A stretch of DNA of 64,000 nucleotides from Flavobacterium flevense. Lineage in GTDB: Bacteria > Bacteroidota > Bacteroidia > Flavobacteriales > Flavobacteriaceae. A model generated the notes under the pieces. The model saw nothing but the letters and a program-made list of their open reading frames with translations, ran no database searches and was not told where the DNA came from. Made by a program: the position numbers and the translations under genes. Shown here in pieces: positions 35,314-44,379 of the stretch (position 1 is its first letter; every line of letters starts with the position of its first letter). The stretch lies in the NCBI RefSeq assembly GCF_900142775.1, contig NZ_FRCC01000008.1, positions 124,001 through 188,000 of the forward strand, given 5' to 3'.

Positions 35314-35573
35314 TCTCACCATTGTCACACTGAGCTTGTCGAAGTGCTTTTGTAACATTCCAATGTCTTCGACAAGCTCAGACTGACAGTTGTATAAGTA
35401 GTGAATAGTATAAGAAATCATACTGTTTTCAAACTGAGCCTGTCGAAGTCTCCTAAAATGTAATCCAACTGTCACACTGAGCCTGTCGAAGTGTTTTTAT
35501 AACATTCCAATGTCTTCGACAAGCTCAGACTGACAGTTGTATAAGTAGTGAATAGAATAAGAAATTCCACCAT
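35314..35573. repeat. TGTCA...TGACA hairpin repeats (family R1), first two full units and a half unit
   Basis: Unit one spans 35323-35388 (66 bases): TGTCACACTGAGC-TGTCGAAG, a short loop, then CTTCGACAAGCTCAGACTGACA, so the two arms are nearly perfect inverted repeats. A half unit lies near 35433-35455. A second full unit starts about 35472 and ends at TGACA near 35536. Spacer between units is GTTGTATAAGTAGTGAATAG and similar. No gene. Confidence 0.9.
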
Positions 35574-35975
35574 TGTCACACTGAGCCTGTCGAAGTGCTT
35601 GTTAAAACTAACATAGTGTAAATATGTAGCCCTAAACTCCAAACAAATGAAAACATATTTTGTCTATATTTTAAAATGTGCGGATGAATCCTTTTATACA
35701 GGAATGACAAATAATTTAGAAAGAAGATGCTATGAACACAATATAGGGATTGATATCGAGGCCTATACTTTTAAGAGAAGACCAGTAGAGTTAGTTTGGT
35801 TTGAAATGTTTACTGATCCTACGCAAGCTATTGTAATTGAAAAGAAAATAAAAGGTTGGAGTAGAAGAAAAAAACAAGCATTAATTGATGAAGATTGGGA
35901 TAAATTAGTAAGATATTCAAAAAATTACACTGAGTATGGAAAAGATGACGAGTCTTCGACAAGCTCAGACTGACA
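35574..35975 (+). mobile_element. R1 hairpin unit with a GIY-YIG gene in its loop
   Basis: This unit begins with the same TGTCACACTGAGCCTGTCGA arm as its neighbours (35574) and ends with the same CTTCGACAAGCTCAGACTGACA arm (TGACA at 35971-35975). It is 402 bases long rather than 66 because a complete GIY-YIG gene fills the loop. Neighbouring plain units repeat every 103-106 bases on the downstream side. This looks like a gene-bearing form of the repeat, or an insertion exactly into a loop. Confidence 0.65.
35647..35973 (+). CDS. GIY-YIG family endonuclease-like protein (copy 1)
   Basis: Small protein of 108 residues of the single-domain GIY-YIG (YhbQ/UvrC-N-like) kind. It shows FVYILKCADESFYTGMTNN near 5-23 in the place of the GIY..YIG strand pair, with R27 and H31 (NLERRCYEH), and the metal-binding glutamate in AIVIEKKIKGWSRRKK. 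The last residues (SSTSSD) and the stop codon are read from the right arm of the surrounding R1 hairpin, so the open reading frame ends inside the repeat. Role unknown; nicking or cutting of hairpin DNA of its own repeat is a tempting inference. Confidence 0.85.
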   Translation: MKTYFVYILKCADESFYTGMTNNLERRCYEHNIGIDIEAYTFKRRPVELVWFEMFTDPTQAIVIEKKIKGWSRRKKQALIDEDWDKLVRYSKNYTEYGKDDESSTSSD

Positions 35976-36840
35976 ACAGGACAAGTAGTGAATAGAACAA
36001 GAAATTCCACCATTGTCACACGGAGCCTGTAGAAGTGCTTTTGTAATATTCCAATGTCTTCGACAAGCTCAGACTGACAGTTGTATAAGTAGTGAATAGT
36101 ATAAGAAATTCCACCATTGTCACACTGAGCCTGTCGAAAAGTGTTTTTGGAACATTTCAATGTCTTTGACAATCTCAGACTGACAACAGGGCAAGTAGCG
36201 AATAGAATAAGAAATTCCACTATTGTCACACTGAGCCTGTCGAAGTGCTTTTGCAACTTTCCAATGTCTTCGACAAGCTCAGACTGACAACAGTACAAAT
36301 AGCTAATAGAGTAAGAAATTTCGCTATTGTCATACTGAACCTGTCGAAGTGCATTTATAACTTCCCAATGTCTTCGACAAGCTCAGATTGACAGCTGCAT
36401 AAGTAGCGAATAGAATATGTAATCCACTATTGTCACACTGAGCCTGTCTAAGTGCTTTTGTAATATTCCAATGTCTTCGACAAGCTCAGACTGACAGTTG
36501 TATAAGTAGTGAATAGTATAAGAAATTCCACCATTGTCACACTGAGCCTGTCGAAGTGCATTTATAACTTCCCAATGTCTTTGACAAGCTTAGACTGACA
36601 ACAGTACAAATGGCTAATAGAGTAAGAAATTCCACTATTGTCACACTGAACCTGTCGAAGTGCATTTATAACTTCCCAATGTTTTTGACAAGCTTAGACT
36701 GACAACAGTACAAGTAGTGAGTAGAATAAGAAATTCCACCATTGTCACACTGAGCCTGTCGAAGTGCTTGTGCAACTTTCCAATGTCTTTAAGAAGTCCA
36801 GAATAAGTAGTGAAAGAAGTAAATCGAATAATATCGCTTT
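35976..36840. repeat. R1 hairpin array, eight further units with ~104-base period
   Basis: Right arms start near 36058, 36162, 36268, 36372, 36476, 36579, 36682 and (degenerate) 36786, a spacing of 103-106 bases. Each unit is TGTCACACTGAGCCTGTCGA...CTTCGACAAGCTCAGACTGACA followed by about 38 spacer bases. Later units carry compatible changes (for example CTTTGACAAGCTTAGACTGA). Long open frames across the array are artefacts of the repeat. It fills most of the gap between the GIY-YIG gene and the NeuB-type gene. Confidence 0.95.
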
Positions 36841-37782: not shown

Positions 37783-37919
37783 TGTCATTTCGACCACAGG
37801 GAGAAATAACATAAAGATATTCCACAAAGAGAGAAGATAAAAGTATTTACAATTCGTTGTATTTAATATAATCATCGAAATGAAATGCAGGATGTGATTC
37901 CTCCTGCGTCGGAATGACA
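37783..37919. repeat. Palindromic repeat family R2, unit 1 (137 bases)
   Basis: Starts TGTCATTTCGACCACAGGGA and ends TCCTCCTGCGTCGGAATGAC plus A. The end arm read in reverse complement (GTCATTCCGACGCAGGAGGA) matches the start arm imperfectly. The interior is AT-rich and without a gene. Unit 2 has the same length. Confidence 0.9.
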
Positions 37920-37933
37920 CACTGGGAGAGTTT

Positions 37934-38070
37934 TGTCATTTCGACCAGAGGGAGAAATCACATAAAGATATTCCACAAAGAGAGAAGATAAAAGTATTTA
38001 CAATTTATTGTATTAAATATAATCATCGAAATGAAATGCAGGATGCGATTCCTCCTGCGTCGGAATGACA
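37934..38070. repeat. Palindromic repeat family R2, unit 2 (137 bases)
   Basis: Same sequence as unit 1 with few changes, same 137-base length from TGTCA to TGACA, separated from unit 1 by 14 bases. The close similarity of the interiors as well as the arms suggests movement or duplication as a whole unit. Confidence 0.9.
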
Positions 38071-38081
38071 CCTAGATGTTT

Positions 38082-38552
38082 TTTTATTTAGAGTACACGG
38101 AGAAATCACATAAAATATTTTATAAAACAAGAAAAATTCCCTACTGGAAAGTAATTTTAGTATATTCGATTTATTTTCAATGTATTAAAAGTTAATTGGT
38201 CTATGTATGAGCTAAACCAGGGATACCATACTTATTATGTCTATATAATTACAAATAGTTATAGAAGTACTTTTTATATTGGAATGACCAATAATTTGAA
38301 ACAACGACTACAACAACATCATCAGAATATAGTAGACAGTAATAAAACTTTTGCCGCTAAATATAATATTGAATTTCTAGTTTATTATGAAAAACATACT
38401 TGGGTACATCAAGCAATTCTTCGAGAGAAAGAATTAAAAAGTTGGAGAAGAGAAAAGAAATTAGAATTGATACGGTCTTTCAATTCAGATTTTGAGTTTT
38501 TAAATGATAGATTTAAAAGTAGGGATGCGATTCCTCCTGCGTCGGAATGACA
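38082..38552 (+). mobile_element. R2 unit with a GIY-YIG gene in its interior
   Basis: The left arm is worn at its outermost bases but keeps the phrase GGAGAAATCACATAAA at the spacing seen in units 1 and 2. The right arm GCGATTCCTCCTGCGTCGGA ending in TGACA (38548-38552) is intact. The unit measures about 471 bases instead of 137 because it contains a GIY-YIG gene. This parallels the gene-bearing R1 unit at 35574-35975. Confidence 0.6.
38203..38550 (+). CDS. GIY-YIG family endonuclease-like protein (copy 2)
   Basis: Small protein of 115 residues with the GIY-YIG layout: YYVYIITNSYRSTFYIGMTN near 11-30, R35 and H39/H40 (LKQRLQQHH), and the glutamate of AILREKELKSWRREKK near 70-85. It is not a recent copy of the gene at 35647; similarity is mostly limited to family motifs. 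Its final residues RDAIPPASE and the stop are encoded by the right arm of the surrounding R2 repeat, just as copy 1 ends in the right arm of R1. Confidence 0.85.
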   Translation: MYELNQGYHTYYVYIITNSYRSTFYIGMTNNLKQRLQQHHQNIVDSNKTFAAKYNIEFLVYYEKHTWVHQAILREKELKSWRREKKLELIRSFNSDFEFLNDRFKSRDAIPPASE

Positions 38553-38566
38553 CACTAGGAGGGTTT

Positions 38567-38605
38567 TGTCATTTAGACCAAACGGAGAAATCACATAAAG
38601 TAGAG
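38567..38605. repeat. Truncated R2 left arm
   Basis: TGTCATTTAGACCAAACGGA followed by GAAATCACATAAAG matches the beginning of R2 units 1 and 2, then homology ends. A remnant of a further unit directly after the gene-bearing one. Confidence 0.7.
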
Positions 38606-40258: not shown

Positions 40259-40260
40259 AC

Positions 40261-40375
40261 CTCTAACCTCTAACCTCTAACCTCTAACCTCTAACCTCTA
40301 ACCTCTAACCTCTAACCTCTAACCTCTAACCTCTAACCTCTAACCTCTAACCTCTAACTTCTAACTTCTAACTTC
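40261..40375. repeat. Heptamer array (CTCTAAC) x14 then (TTCTAAC) x2
   Basis: Fourteen perfect CTCTAAC units (40261-40358) are followed by two TTCTAAC units and a partial one, ending four bases before the ATG of the MBOAT gene. The reverse complement, GTTAGAG/GTTAGAA, is the unit of the degenerate heptamers near 18758 and 20275. The array occupies the whole place where the leader or promoter of the MBOAT gene should be. Confidence 0.95.
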
Positions 40376-43146: not shown

Positions 43147-44298
43147 ATGCATATTGCCTTTTTAACTCCTGAATATCCTCATACTCAAGTAACGCATGCA
43201 GCGGGTATTGGTACCAGTATCAAAAACCTGACTACTGCATTAGTTACTGAAGGAATTGCTGTTACAGTATTCATTTACGGTCAAAAAACTCAGGAAATAA
43301 TTAACGAAAATGGCATTAGCATCCATTTAATTAAAAATAAAAAGTACAGCTTTTTAGGCTGGTATTTTCATCGAAAATATATCGAAAGTTATTGTAATTC
43401 GATCATAAAAAAAGAGAAAGTTGATTTGCTTGAAGCTCCCGACTGGACAGGTATTACAGCTTTTATGAAGTTCAAAATTCCACTGATAATCCGTTTTCAT
43501 GGTAGTGACACTTATTTTTGCCATTTGGAAGAACGTCCACAGAAAATAAAAAATTTTTGGTTCGAAAAGTTAGCAATCTCCGCAGCTGATGCTTTTATAG
43601 CTCCTACCACTTTTGCAGGCGAAGTATCGAAGCAACTTTTTAAAATAAAAAATAAAACGATCCGAACCATACATCACGGACTGGATTTAGCGCAATTTGA
43701 CAACAAAACTCCGGCACAATTTGAGACCGGATTGATACTCTATGTGGGAACAATAATCCGAAAAAAAGGGGTGTTTGAATTACCGGCTATTTTTGCAGCA
43801 GTACGTCAAAAAAATCCAAATGCTCAATTAGTCTTAATAGGTAATGATTCGGCGGATATTCAGACACATTCCTCTTCTACCTGGAATTTAGTAGCAGCAC
43901 TTTTTTCGAGAGATGATATGAAGAACGTAAGCTATTTAGGAAAGAAACCCTATGCAGAAGTGCAGGAGTATATCAAAAAAGCGCATGTTTGCGTGTTTCC
44001 TACCTTTGCTGAAACTTTAGGTATGGTAACTATAGAGGCAATGGCAATGCAAAAAGCGGTTGTGAATTCTAATATTGGCTGGTCAAAAGAATTAATTACA
44101 GATGGTGAAAGTGGCTTTTTAGTGCATCCGACTAATCATCAATTGTATGCAGATAAAATTATTGAGTTGTTACAAAATAATAGTTTATGCCACCAGATAG
44201 GAACGCAGGCGAGGACAAGAATCGAAGCAAAATTTGATATAAAAAATATCGTAAAAGAAAATATCGAATTCTATCAGCAAATGATTAATAAAGAATAA
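43147..44298 (+). CDS. GT4-family glycosyltransferase
   Basis: GT-B transferase of 383 residues. It opens HIAFLTPEYPHTQVTHAAGI with the donor/acceptor glycine loop GIGTSIKNL, IIRFHGSDTYF, a middle TIHHGLDLAQFD and late FPTFAETLGMVTIEAMAMQK near 287-306, which is the E-x7-E motif. A gap of 135 bases precedes it, containing a small AATTTTCTTT/AAAGAAAA hairpin. The stop codon GAATAA is itself the first unit of an eight-copy GAATAAA array. Confidence 0.88.
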   Translation: MHIAFLTPEYPHTQVTHAAGIGTSIKNLTTALVTEGIAVTVFIYGQKTQEIINENGISIHLIKNKKYSFLGWYFHRKYIESYCNSIIKKEKVDLLEAPDWTGITAFMKFKIPLIIRFHGSDTYFCHLEERPQKIKNFWFEKLAISAADAFIAPTTFAGEVSKQLFKIKNKTIRTIHHGLDLAQFDNKTPAQFETGLILYVGTIIRKKGVFELPAIFAAVRQKNPNAQLVLIGNDSADIQTHSSSTWNLVAALFSRDDMKNVSYLGKKPYAEVQEYIKKAHVCVFPTFAETLGMVTIEAMAMQKAVVNSNIGWSKELITDGESGFLVHPTNHQLYADKIIELLQNNSLCHQIGTQARTRIEAKFDIKNIVKENIEFYQQMINKE

Positions 44299-44348
44299 AG
44301 AATAAAGAATAAAGAATAAAGAATAAAGAATAAAGAATAAAGAATAAA
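44293..44348 (+). repeat. Heptamer array (GAATAAA) x8
   Basis: Eight perfect copies of GAATAAA beginning in the last sense codon of the GT4 gene and ending 31 bases before the next ATG. Unit and copy number are the same as at 17347-17402, and both start at a gene's stop codon. Confidence 0.95.
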
Positions 44349-44379
44349 TTGCAACTAAAAAACAAAGGACTAATCCATT

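Follow-up and report, generated by a model that had tools for sequence, protein, structure and literature searches.

REP (repetitive extragenic palindromic) sequences are among the commonest bacterial repeats. Those of the CGTC class are short hairpins that carry a fixed, unpaired tag, form dimers, and are dispersed; the dRS3 repeat of Neisseria is CGTC-1, and the accessible part of the 2013 survey of this class gives no mobilising enzyme known for it (Di Nocera et al. 2013, PMC3733652). Here, we describe a unit of Flavobacterium flevense in which a gene for a small GIY-YIG nuclease lies between repeat arms of a similar kind. This unit, R2, and a second locus, R1, were found in one window, i.e., the whole analysed stretch of 64,000 nt (G000:C24:124001-188000 of the 4.23-Mb draft genome G000; contig NZ_FRCC01000008.1). 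As in CGTC REPs, an unpaired CGTC-like tag stands beside a hairpin, and many REPs at diverse loci with related genes fit the class, e.g., CGTCATCCCCGCGAAGGCGGGGATCCAG. The differences are the small GIY-YIG gene between the arms, the tag, which is mostly TGTC in the genus of the window, and the tail, which is not CCA. We consider it probable that the R2 and R1 loci are "GIY-YIG REPtrons", in which a UPF0213-like nuclease is encoded between, or into, the arms of its own TGTC/CGTC REP family. Nucleases of this kind may therefore be the partner enzymes that have long been missing for a widespread class of repeats scattered in bacterial genomes.

The nearest known system is probably the Ssn family with its NTS repeats. 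A 2025 paper reportedly describes Ssn as a Neisseria GIY-YIG nuclease specific for single-stranded DNA and associated with a repeat that has hundreds of copies; Ssn homologs are each said to have their own repeat specificity. A small UPF0213-related GIY-YIG protein with a cognate repeat dispersed genome-wide is likewise found here. If this account is right, the pairing of a GIY-YIG nuclease with a repeat is already known in kind. Compared with Ssn, our loci would be distinguished by a gene that reads into the arm, by several gene/arm pairs per genome, and by a branch at tRNA genes; these features, with the nested position of the gene, its arm-coded C-terminus, and the link to the whole CGTC/TGTC REP class, may be new. 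A literature search, with most subscription papers outside its reach, found no GIY-YIG–REP link, and the accessible part of the 2006 GIY-YIG survey (PMC1564403) does not treat one.

The second system to be compared is that of REP-associated tyrosine transposases (RAYTs) and REPINs (REP doublets forming hairpins), where the enzyme gene is also flanked by its own hairpin REPs and gene-less REP pairs are dispersed. RAYT enzymes and REP types likewise co-diversify. Unlike RAYTs, the enzyme here is a GIY-YIG protein and not an HUH/Y1 one (PF01797 is unmatched), and the tag at the hairpin foot is TGTC/CGTC, not GTAG. The nearest solved structures are the UPF0213 proteins 1zg2 and 1ywl (E 1.1e-10 and 1.2e-10 for R1; 5.7e-8 and 5.6e-6 for alignment A1); unlike our loci, the relatives in Cupriavidus that we take to be UPF0213-like have no flanking REPs. 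A nuclease situated between repeats whose arm type matches its subclade makes the question of the mobilising enzyme directly testable, and many natural nuclease/hairpin pairs are offered for specificity studies.

The R2 family begins in the window with two gene-less units at 37783..37920 and 37934..38071 (both + strand), which are 96% identical. The initial annotation had placed both copies correctly; their length, given there as 137, is 138 nt. In the first unit, the left arm is a TGTC-tagged hairpin with an ATTTC/GAAAT stem, the right arm has the opposite orientation and an ATTCC/GGAAT stem, and about 75 nt separates the arms. The third unit (38082..38552, +) had been reported to keep the left phrase and an intact right arm with a GIY-YIG gene inside, and we find it so: GGAGAAATCACATAAA is retained at 38099-38114 and the right arm is intact. 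The left arm is degraded in its outer half, where by eye the TGTC tag is gone (TTTTTATTTAGAGTACAC). The gene (38203..38550, +) encodes a GIY-YIG protein of 115 aa (PF01541, E 1.1e-14) of clade A1. The right arm, the tagged hairpin TGTCATTCCGACGCAGGAGGAATCGCAT (38525..38552, −), overlaps the C-terminal codons and the stop; the open reading frame (ORF) bears out the earlier observation that the final residues RDAIPPASE and the TGA stop (38548-38550) come from this arm. Another left arm, solitary and recognised by eye, follows the gene at 38567..38600 (+; TGTCATTTAGACCAAACGGAGAAATCACATAAAG). With their hairpin and TGTC tag, the R2 arms are repeats of REP type and are scattered over the genome; the core of the right arm has 20 genome matches at no more than one mismatch, three of them in the window cluster, and its reversed control has none. 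An Rfam scan of the units gave matches solely below the gathering scores of the families; thus, no known RNA family accounts for them.

The companion R1-type gene (35647..35973, +; 108 aa, clade B) is surrounded by an array (35318..36790, without assigned strand) of TGTCACACTGAGCyTGTCGAAGTG arms and arms of opposite orientation. An R1 arm supplies the C-terminal SSTSSD of the protein and its stop codon. The R2 family had been called unrelated to R1, which is not so, as both are TGTC-tagged hairpin repeats that differ in loop and stem. In Pfam at E 0.001, the R1 and R2 proteins match PF01541, R2 also matches T5orf172, and neither matches any other family.

Twelve PF01541 matches were found in G000. 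Two lie in longer ORFs (605 and 460 aa), which we take to be UvrC-like and exonuclease-like; the rest comprise fragments of the cluster on contig C20 and seven genes or clusters that stand alone. According to the reading of their flanks, five of the stand-alone loci have hairpin repeats of differing kinds; at the other two, C23:34409 and the tandem C20 cluster, there are tRNA genes or damaged tRNA copies. A protein search gave matches in 48 of the 61 congeneric genomes, with 0 to 9 in each. From 119 congeneric regions, taken with long fused frames excluded, a local profile extracted 129 GIY-YIG domains with a length of 56 positions or more; sufficient flank was available for 126 of them. When the 400 nt on either side of each gene were locally aligned with each other, a repeat scoring at least 40 was detected in 110 of the 126 genes (89 direct, 64 inverted, some both) versus 10 of the 475 control ORFs from the same loci. 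Small GIY-YIG genes of this genus are physically associated with repeats. TGTC repeats are common in this genome, and it could be supposed that, in a genus whose spacers are full of repeats, the two window cases are a coincidence or an annotation artefact. This was rejected on the basis of matched controls, permutation tests, and repetition across phyla, and we give it practically no probability. The initial argument that two cases in 3 kb make chance unlikely is borne out by the matched controls and the genus-wide counts. Its main idea is right and far wider than supposed, since the association is general and extends beyond the two cases; the accompanying proposal that GIY-YIG genes and palindromic repeats move together stands on the association, from which movement is inferred.

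A repeated arm with a TGTC, CGTC, or AGTC tag belongs to 78 of the 87 genes of clades A1, A2, and B. After the tag comes a hairpin whose loop is typical of the subclade (e.g., GACGAAGGA in R2-like arms, GAGCnnnGTCGA in R1-like arms) and whose stem varies with compensating changes. In the genus of the window, the tag is mostly TGTC, less often CGTC or AGTC, and the tails of R2-like arms are CTCC, TCTC, CACA, and others, not CCA-like. Covariation of the stems was evaluated as the number of Watson–Crick pairs out of five in each loop class against 1000 shuffles, and four of the five classes exceed all shuffles. The 12-nt B1 loop, with 45 distinct stem pairs, shows 3.58 pairs compared with 1.65 in shuffled stems (maximum 2.24), and its TGTC tag is present in 66 of 66 sequences. 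The values are 3.21 versus 2.19 (maximum 3.00) for the R2-like 9-nt loop, 4.15 versus 2.77 (3.77) for the 11-nt B1 loop, and 4.88 versus 3.53 (4.50) for the A2a loop. Hairpins covary here around a persistent tag and loop. At the congeneric A/B loci, the density of tagged hairpins in non-ORF DNA is 3.62/kb near the genes (up to 500 nt) and 0.64/kb far from them (beyond 1000 nt). CGTC/TGTC hairpins with stems of at least 5 bp are present on both sides of 46 of 126 congeneric genes and 16 of 424 controls; the counts for stems of at least 6 (7/126 vs. 1/424) and at least 7 (4/126 vs. 0/424) are uninformative here, as most stems of this genus have 5 bp.

The arm type is paired with the protein subclade. 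Protein and arm distances of 78 genes were compared by a Mantel test that used between-genome pairs only and 2000 permutations; r was 0.61 overall, and no permutation was as high (A1 0.40, B 0.64, A2 0.84). The expectation from the initial annotation that a GIY-YIG tree would follow the arm sequences is in agreement with this result. When proteins of different genomes are close, their arms resemble each other (mean distance 0.24, 382 pairs), and the arms of divergent proteins are as distant within one genome (0.56, 26 pairs) as between genomes (0.54, 1137 pairs). Across the 61 genomes, motif copies are more numerous in genomes that have the matching subclade, by p-values that ignore genome relatedness: 3.9e-6 for A2b, 0.0011 for the R2 subclade, and 2.4e-5 for the R1 group, whose four genomes were chosen after their arms were seen.

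These data bear on the possibility that RAYTs or other Y1 transposases move the REPs and that GIY-YIG genes merely gather in REP-rich spacers. PF01797, which includes RAYTs and IS200/IS605 enzymes, is indeed present in 40 of the 61 genomes, this one among them. However, loop-matched TGTC arms were absent from both sides of all 20 PF01797 loci compared (four from this genome, both length classes), while own flank repeats scoring at least 40 were found at 15 of them. Loop-matched arms occur on at least one side of 63 of 86 A/B GIY-YIG genes, and on both sides of 44; the loops were defined on GIY-YIG arms, so the figure of 63 is not independent, whereas that for the PF01797 loci is. By eye, the eight best-scoring PF01797 loci have no TGTC arms, and some look like IS200/IS605. 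Tagged hairpins are 5–7 times denser beside GIY-YIG genes than in the remaining non-ORF DNA of these loci, the arms match the protein subclade, and genome G028, with 21 matches to the R2 motif, lacks any PF01797 match. The accessible part of the 2013 survey (PMC3733652) contains no RAYT flanked by CGTC repeats. Because none of the 20 loci had TGTC arms, our estimate for a Y1 mover, low from the beginning, was slightly reduced, and we now regard it as very improbable. Two of the eight best-scoring loci (L185 and L186) carry CCCGTAGGG palindromic repeats; the 20 loci above, which are additional to these eight and have own flank repeats at 15, are L322-L341.

The stop codon lies within an arm copy in 12 of the 87 A/B-clade genes; three of these are of the R1 type (window, G002, G024), five are of the R2 type, and three (L129, L122, L099) look weak by eye. 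This is explained by the right arm ending in ATGACA, so that a gene abutting it in frame gains a free TGA; reversed arms end in ATGACA or ATGACG. The offset is identical in six R2-type genes, five by the stop-in-arm criterion and L071, which has a diverged arm, by reading; L069, also by reading, is a longer variant of the R2 type. A standard insertion point, which the initial annotation proposed to look for, exists within subclades (R2 in six genes, R1 in three genomes), and there is no single one overall: outside these subclades, the gene sits between repeat arms at varied distances. The initial model is thus supported in part. Classical intronless homing, in which the nuclease cuts a gene-less allelic repeat site and its gene is copied in, without spreading the gene-less REPs, should be considered here. 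The fused R2 design, with L071 and L069 counted, occurs in five neighbourhoods whose nearest genes mismatch one another, gene copies may be in tandem, there are weak PHROG and PADLOC homing-endonuclease matches, and GIY-YIG families include homing enzymes, all of which would suit homing. The copies, however, are at non-allelic sites, and gene-less arms far outnumber gene-bearing units, so we find homing rather unlikely. A scan of the defence library yielded weak matches only.

Genome G050 was used to compare related species. The R1 gene and its array are missing from the syntenic place in G050, where the repeat is missing too; a clade B gene present in G050 is lacking at the matching place of the window. 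Along the chain between window positions 29504-64000 and G050, the arm count differs in all eight gaps that hold loop-matched arms in either genome. Both arms and genes are thus present or absent between related species. The ratio of nonsynonymous to synonymous substitution rates (dN/dS) is 0.01–0.21 in 11 of 12 GIY-YIG pairs (the twelfth was not computable), with 0.06 for the R2 protein and its G050 counterpart, which indicates that these proteins are maintained by purifying selection. Such strong selection is what would be expected of a domesticated nuclease that serves the host, recognising the repeats in a role such as DNA uptake or recombination while the repeats spread by other means. 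Ssn of Neisseria reportedly modulates natural transformation. In contrast, the patchy presence of the genes in the genus, their syntenic presence and absence, tandem copies, and varied neighbourhoods (once between sufB and sufC) look mobile, and we hold a host-serving role to be possible and clearly doubtful. For GIY-YIG REPtrons, the following mechanism can be proposed. The nuclease would recognise the tagged hairpin, which at this stage is probably single-stranded or extruded as a cruciform, and nick at the tag; the break might then be repaired by copying another REP unit, which would multiply arm pairs, and occasionally a nuclease-carrying unit could be copied along.

Relatives in other phyla have a similar organisation. 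When plasmids were searched by tblastn with the R1 protein, 24 records were obtained, of which ten were inspected. In seven of these (Azospirillum, Rhizobium, Planktothrix, Sinorhizobium, two Methylobacterium, and Sphingomonas), hairpins tagged CGTC, TGTC, or CCTC or else R1-like arms can be read on each side of the gene, and one is degenerate; the Azospirillum gene is the one between sufB and sufC. Species genomes were then scanned with an alignment of four plasmid relatives and R2, and the best 80 of 584 loci were taken, 79 of them usable. Flank repeats scoring at least 40 are found in 59 of these 79 genes from many phyla versus 1 of 132 controls, in a sample biased by the five query members all being REP-flanked already, so that this is no general rate for small GIY-YIG genes. 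Both-sided CGTC/TGTC hairpins with stems of at least 7 bp are present in 49 of 79 versus 1 of 129 controls; with stems of at least 6 and at least 5, the counts are 50 versus 3 and 58 versus 16. The density of tagged hairpins is 4.80/kb near the genes and 0.65/kb far from them, the stop lies within a tagged hairpin in 6 of 76 genes, and CCA-like tails can be read in many loci. In each of six genomes or records, selected for arms that fit one pattern, the flanking REP has 6–106 matches and its control none; this REP is dispersed there.

Several facts weigh against the reading of these loci as GIY-YIG REPtrons, apart from the sampling bias and the relatedness of genomes already mentioned. Cleavage, binding, and movement by the nucleases are inferred rather than observed, and nucleases maintained by purifying selection could be of use to the host instead of spreading REPs. 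No strong flank repeat was found for 16 of the 126 congeneric genes and 20 of the 79 diverse ones; one G000 gene, on contig C12 (L060), has arms on one side only, and two of the ten inspected plasmid relatives, from Cupriavidus (L194 and L196), presumably canonical UPF0213/YhbQ-like proteins, have no flanking repeats. The A2b loop class stays within its shuffles (2.64 vs. 1.84, shuffled maximum 2.73). The A2b motif is also correlated with other groups, with p 1e-5 for clade A1b, 0.0042 for the R2 subclade, and 0.02 for B1. Some genomes are rich in R2 motifs without having an A1 gene, as is G028 with its 21 copies, where whatever spread them may have been lost. At three places read in comparison with G050, no clean empty site or target-site duplication could be made out, because the intergenic spacers of the window genome and G050 are too diverged.

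A separate branch of small GIY-YIG proteins, clade C (34 domains), is associated with tRNA genes. An intact tRNA gene on the same strand ends within 250 nt upstream of 23 of 33 clade C genes and of none of 86 other genes. A copy of the upstream sequence follows 29 of the 33 genes and in 18 begins at or before the stop codon. By reading, these downstream copies are damaged tRNAs in which the anticodon arm is often swapped for a TTCCGAT/ATCGGAA or TCCCGA/TCGGGA hairpin. The tRNA isotypes follow the clade C tree, with 8 changes compared with a shuffled minimum of 10 (23 leaves, 8 isotypes, five tandem second copies dropped). In this genome, the clade C gene at G000:C23:34409 (L006/L063) has an intact tRNA gene on one side (Val in L063) and, on the other, a damaged tRNA copy at which its stop is located, and the genes at G000:C20:55940-56922 (L064) are in tandem with damaged tRNA copies. 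In G056, a run at C1:443665-444785 follows a tRNA-Val-like match and includes five damaged tRNA-Val-like copies (C1:443989-444785) spaced about 188 nt apart, which leaves no room for a full GIY-YIG gene between them.

The clade C protein is matched in 101 of 198 Bacteroidota genomes by a search that also admits other clades. Ten of 30 Bacteroidota loci have an intact same-strand tRNA gene within 250 nt upstream; by reading, in most of the others the tRNA gene is further off or downstream, or tRNA remnants are present. In the Bacteroidota branch represented by clade C, the target may have changed from REPs to tRNA genes, and the damaged tRNA copies would be the repeat units left. If so, this would be an unusual case of specialisation by tRNA isotype in a nuclease, whether selfish or domesticated. 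We give about even chances to the broader proposal that small GIY-YIG proteins are the dedicated enzymes of the whole CGTC/TGTC REP superfamily and that a Bacteroidota branch turned to tRNA genes, diversified by isotype, and formed tandem arrays of pseudo-tRNAs with swapped anticodon arms.

Matches to the tRNA-type GIY-YIG protein are numerous in G112 (15), G229 (7), and G247 (12), several of them in tandem about 365 nt apart. The TCCCGA..TCGGGA hairpin recurs as a replacement centre in REP loops, tRNA anticodon arms, and T arms (L079, L064, L178, and many pseudo-tRNA copies). Additionally, short tandem runs of CTCTAAC and AATAAAG units are present at about 40260-40354 and 44285-44350 of the window, in spacers that differ from those of G050.
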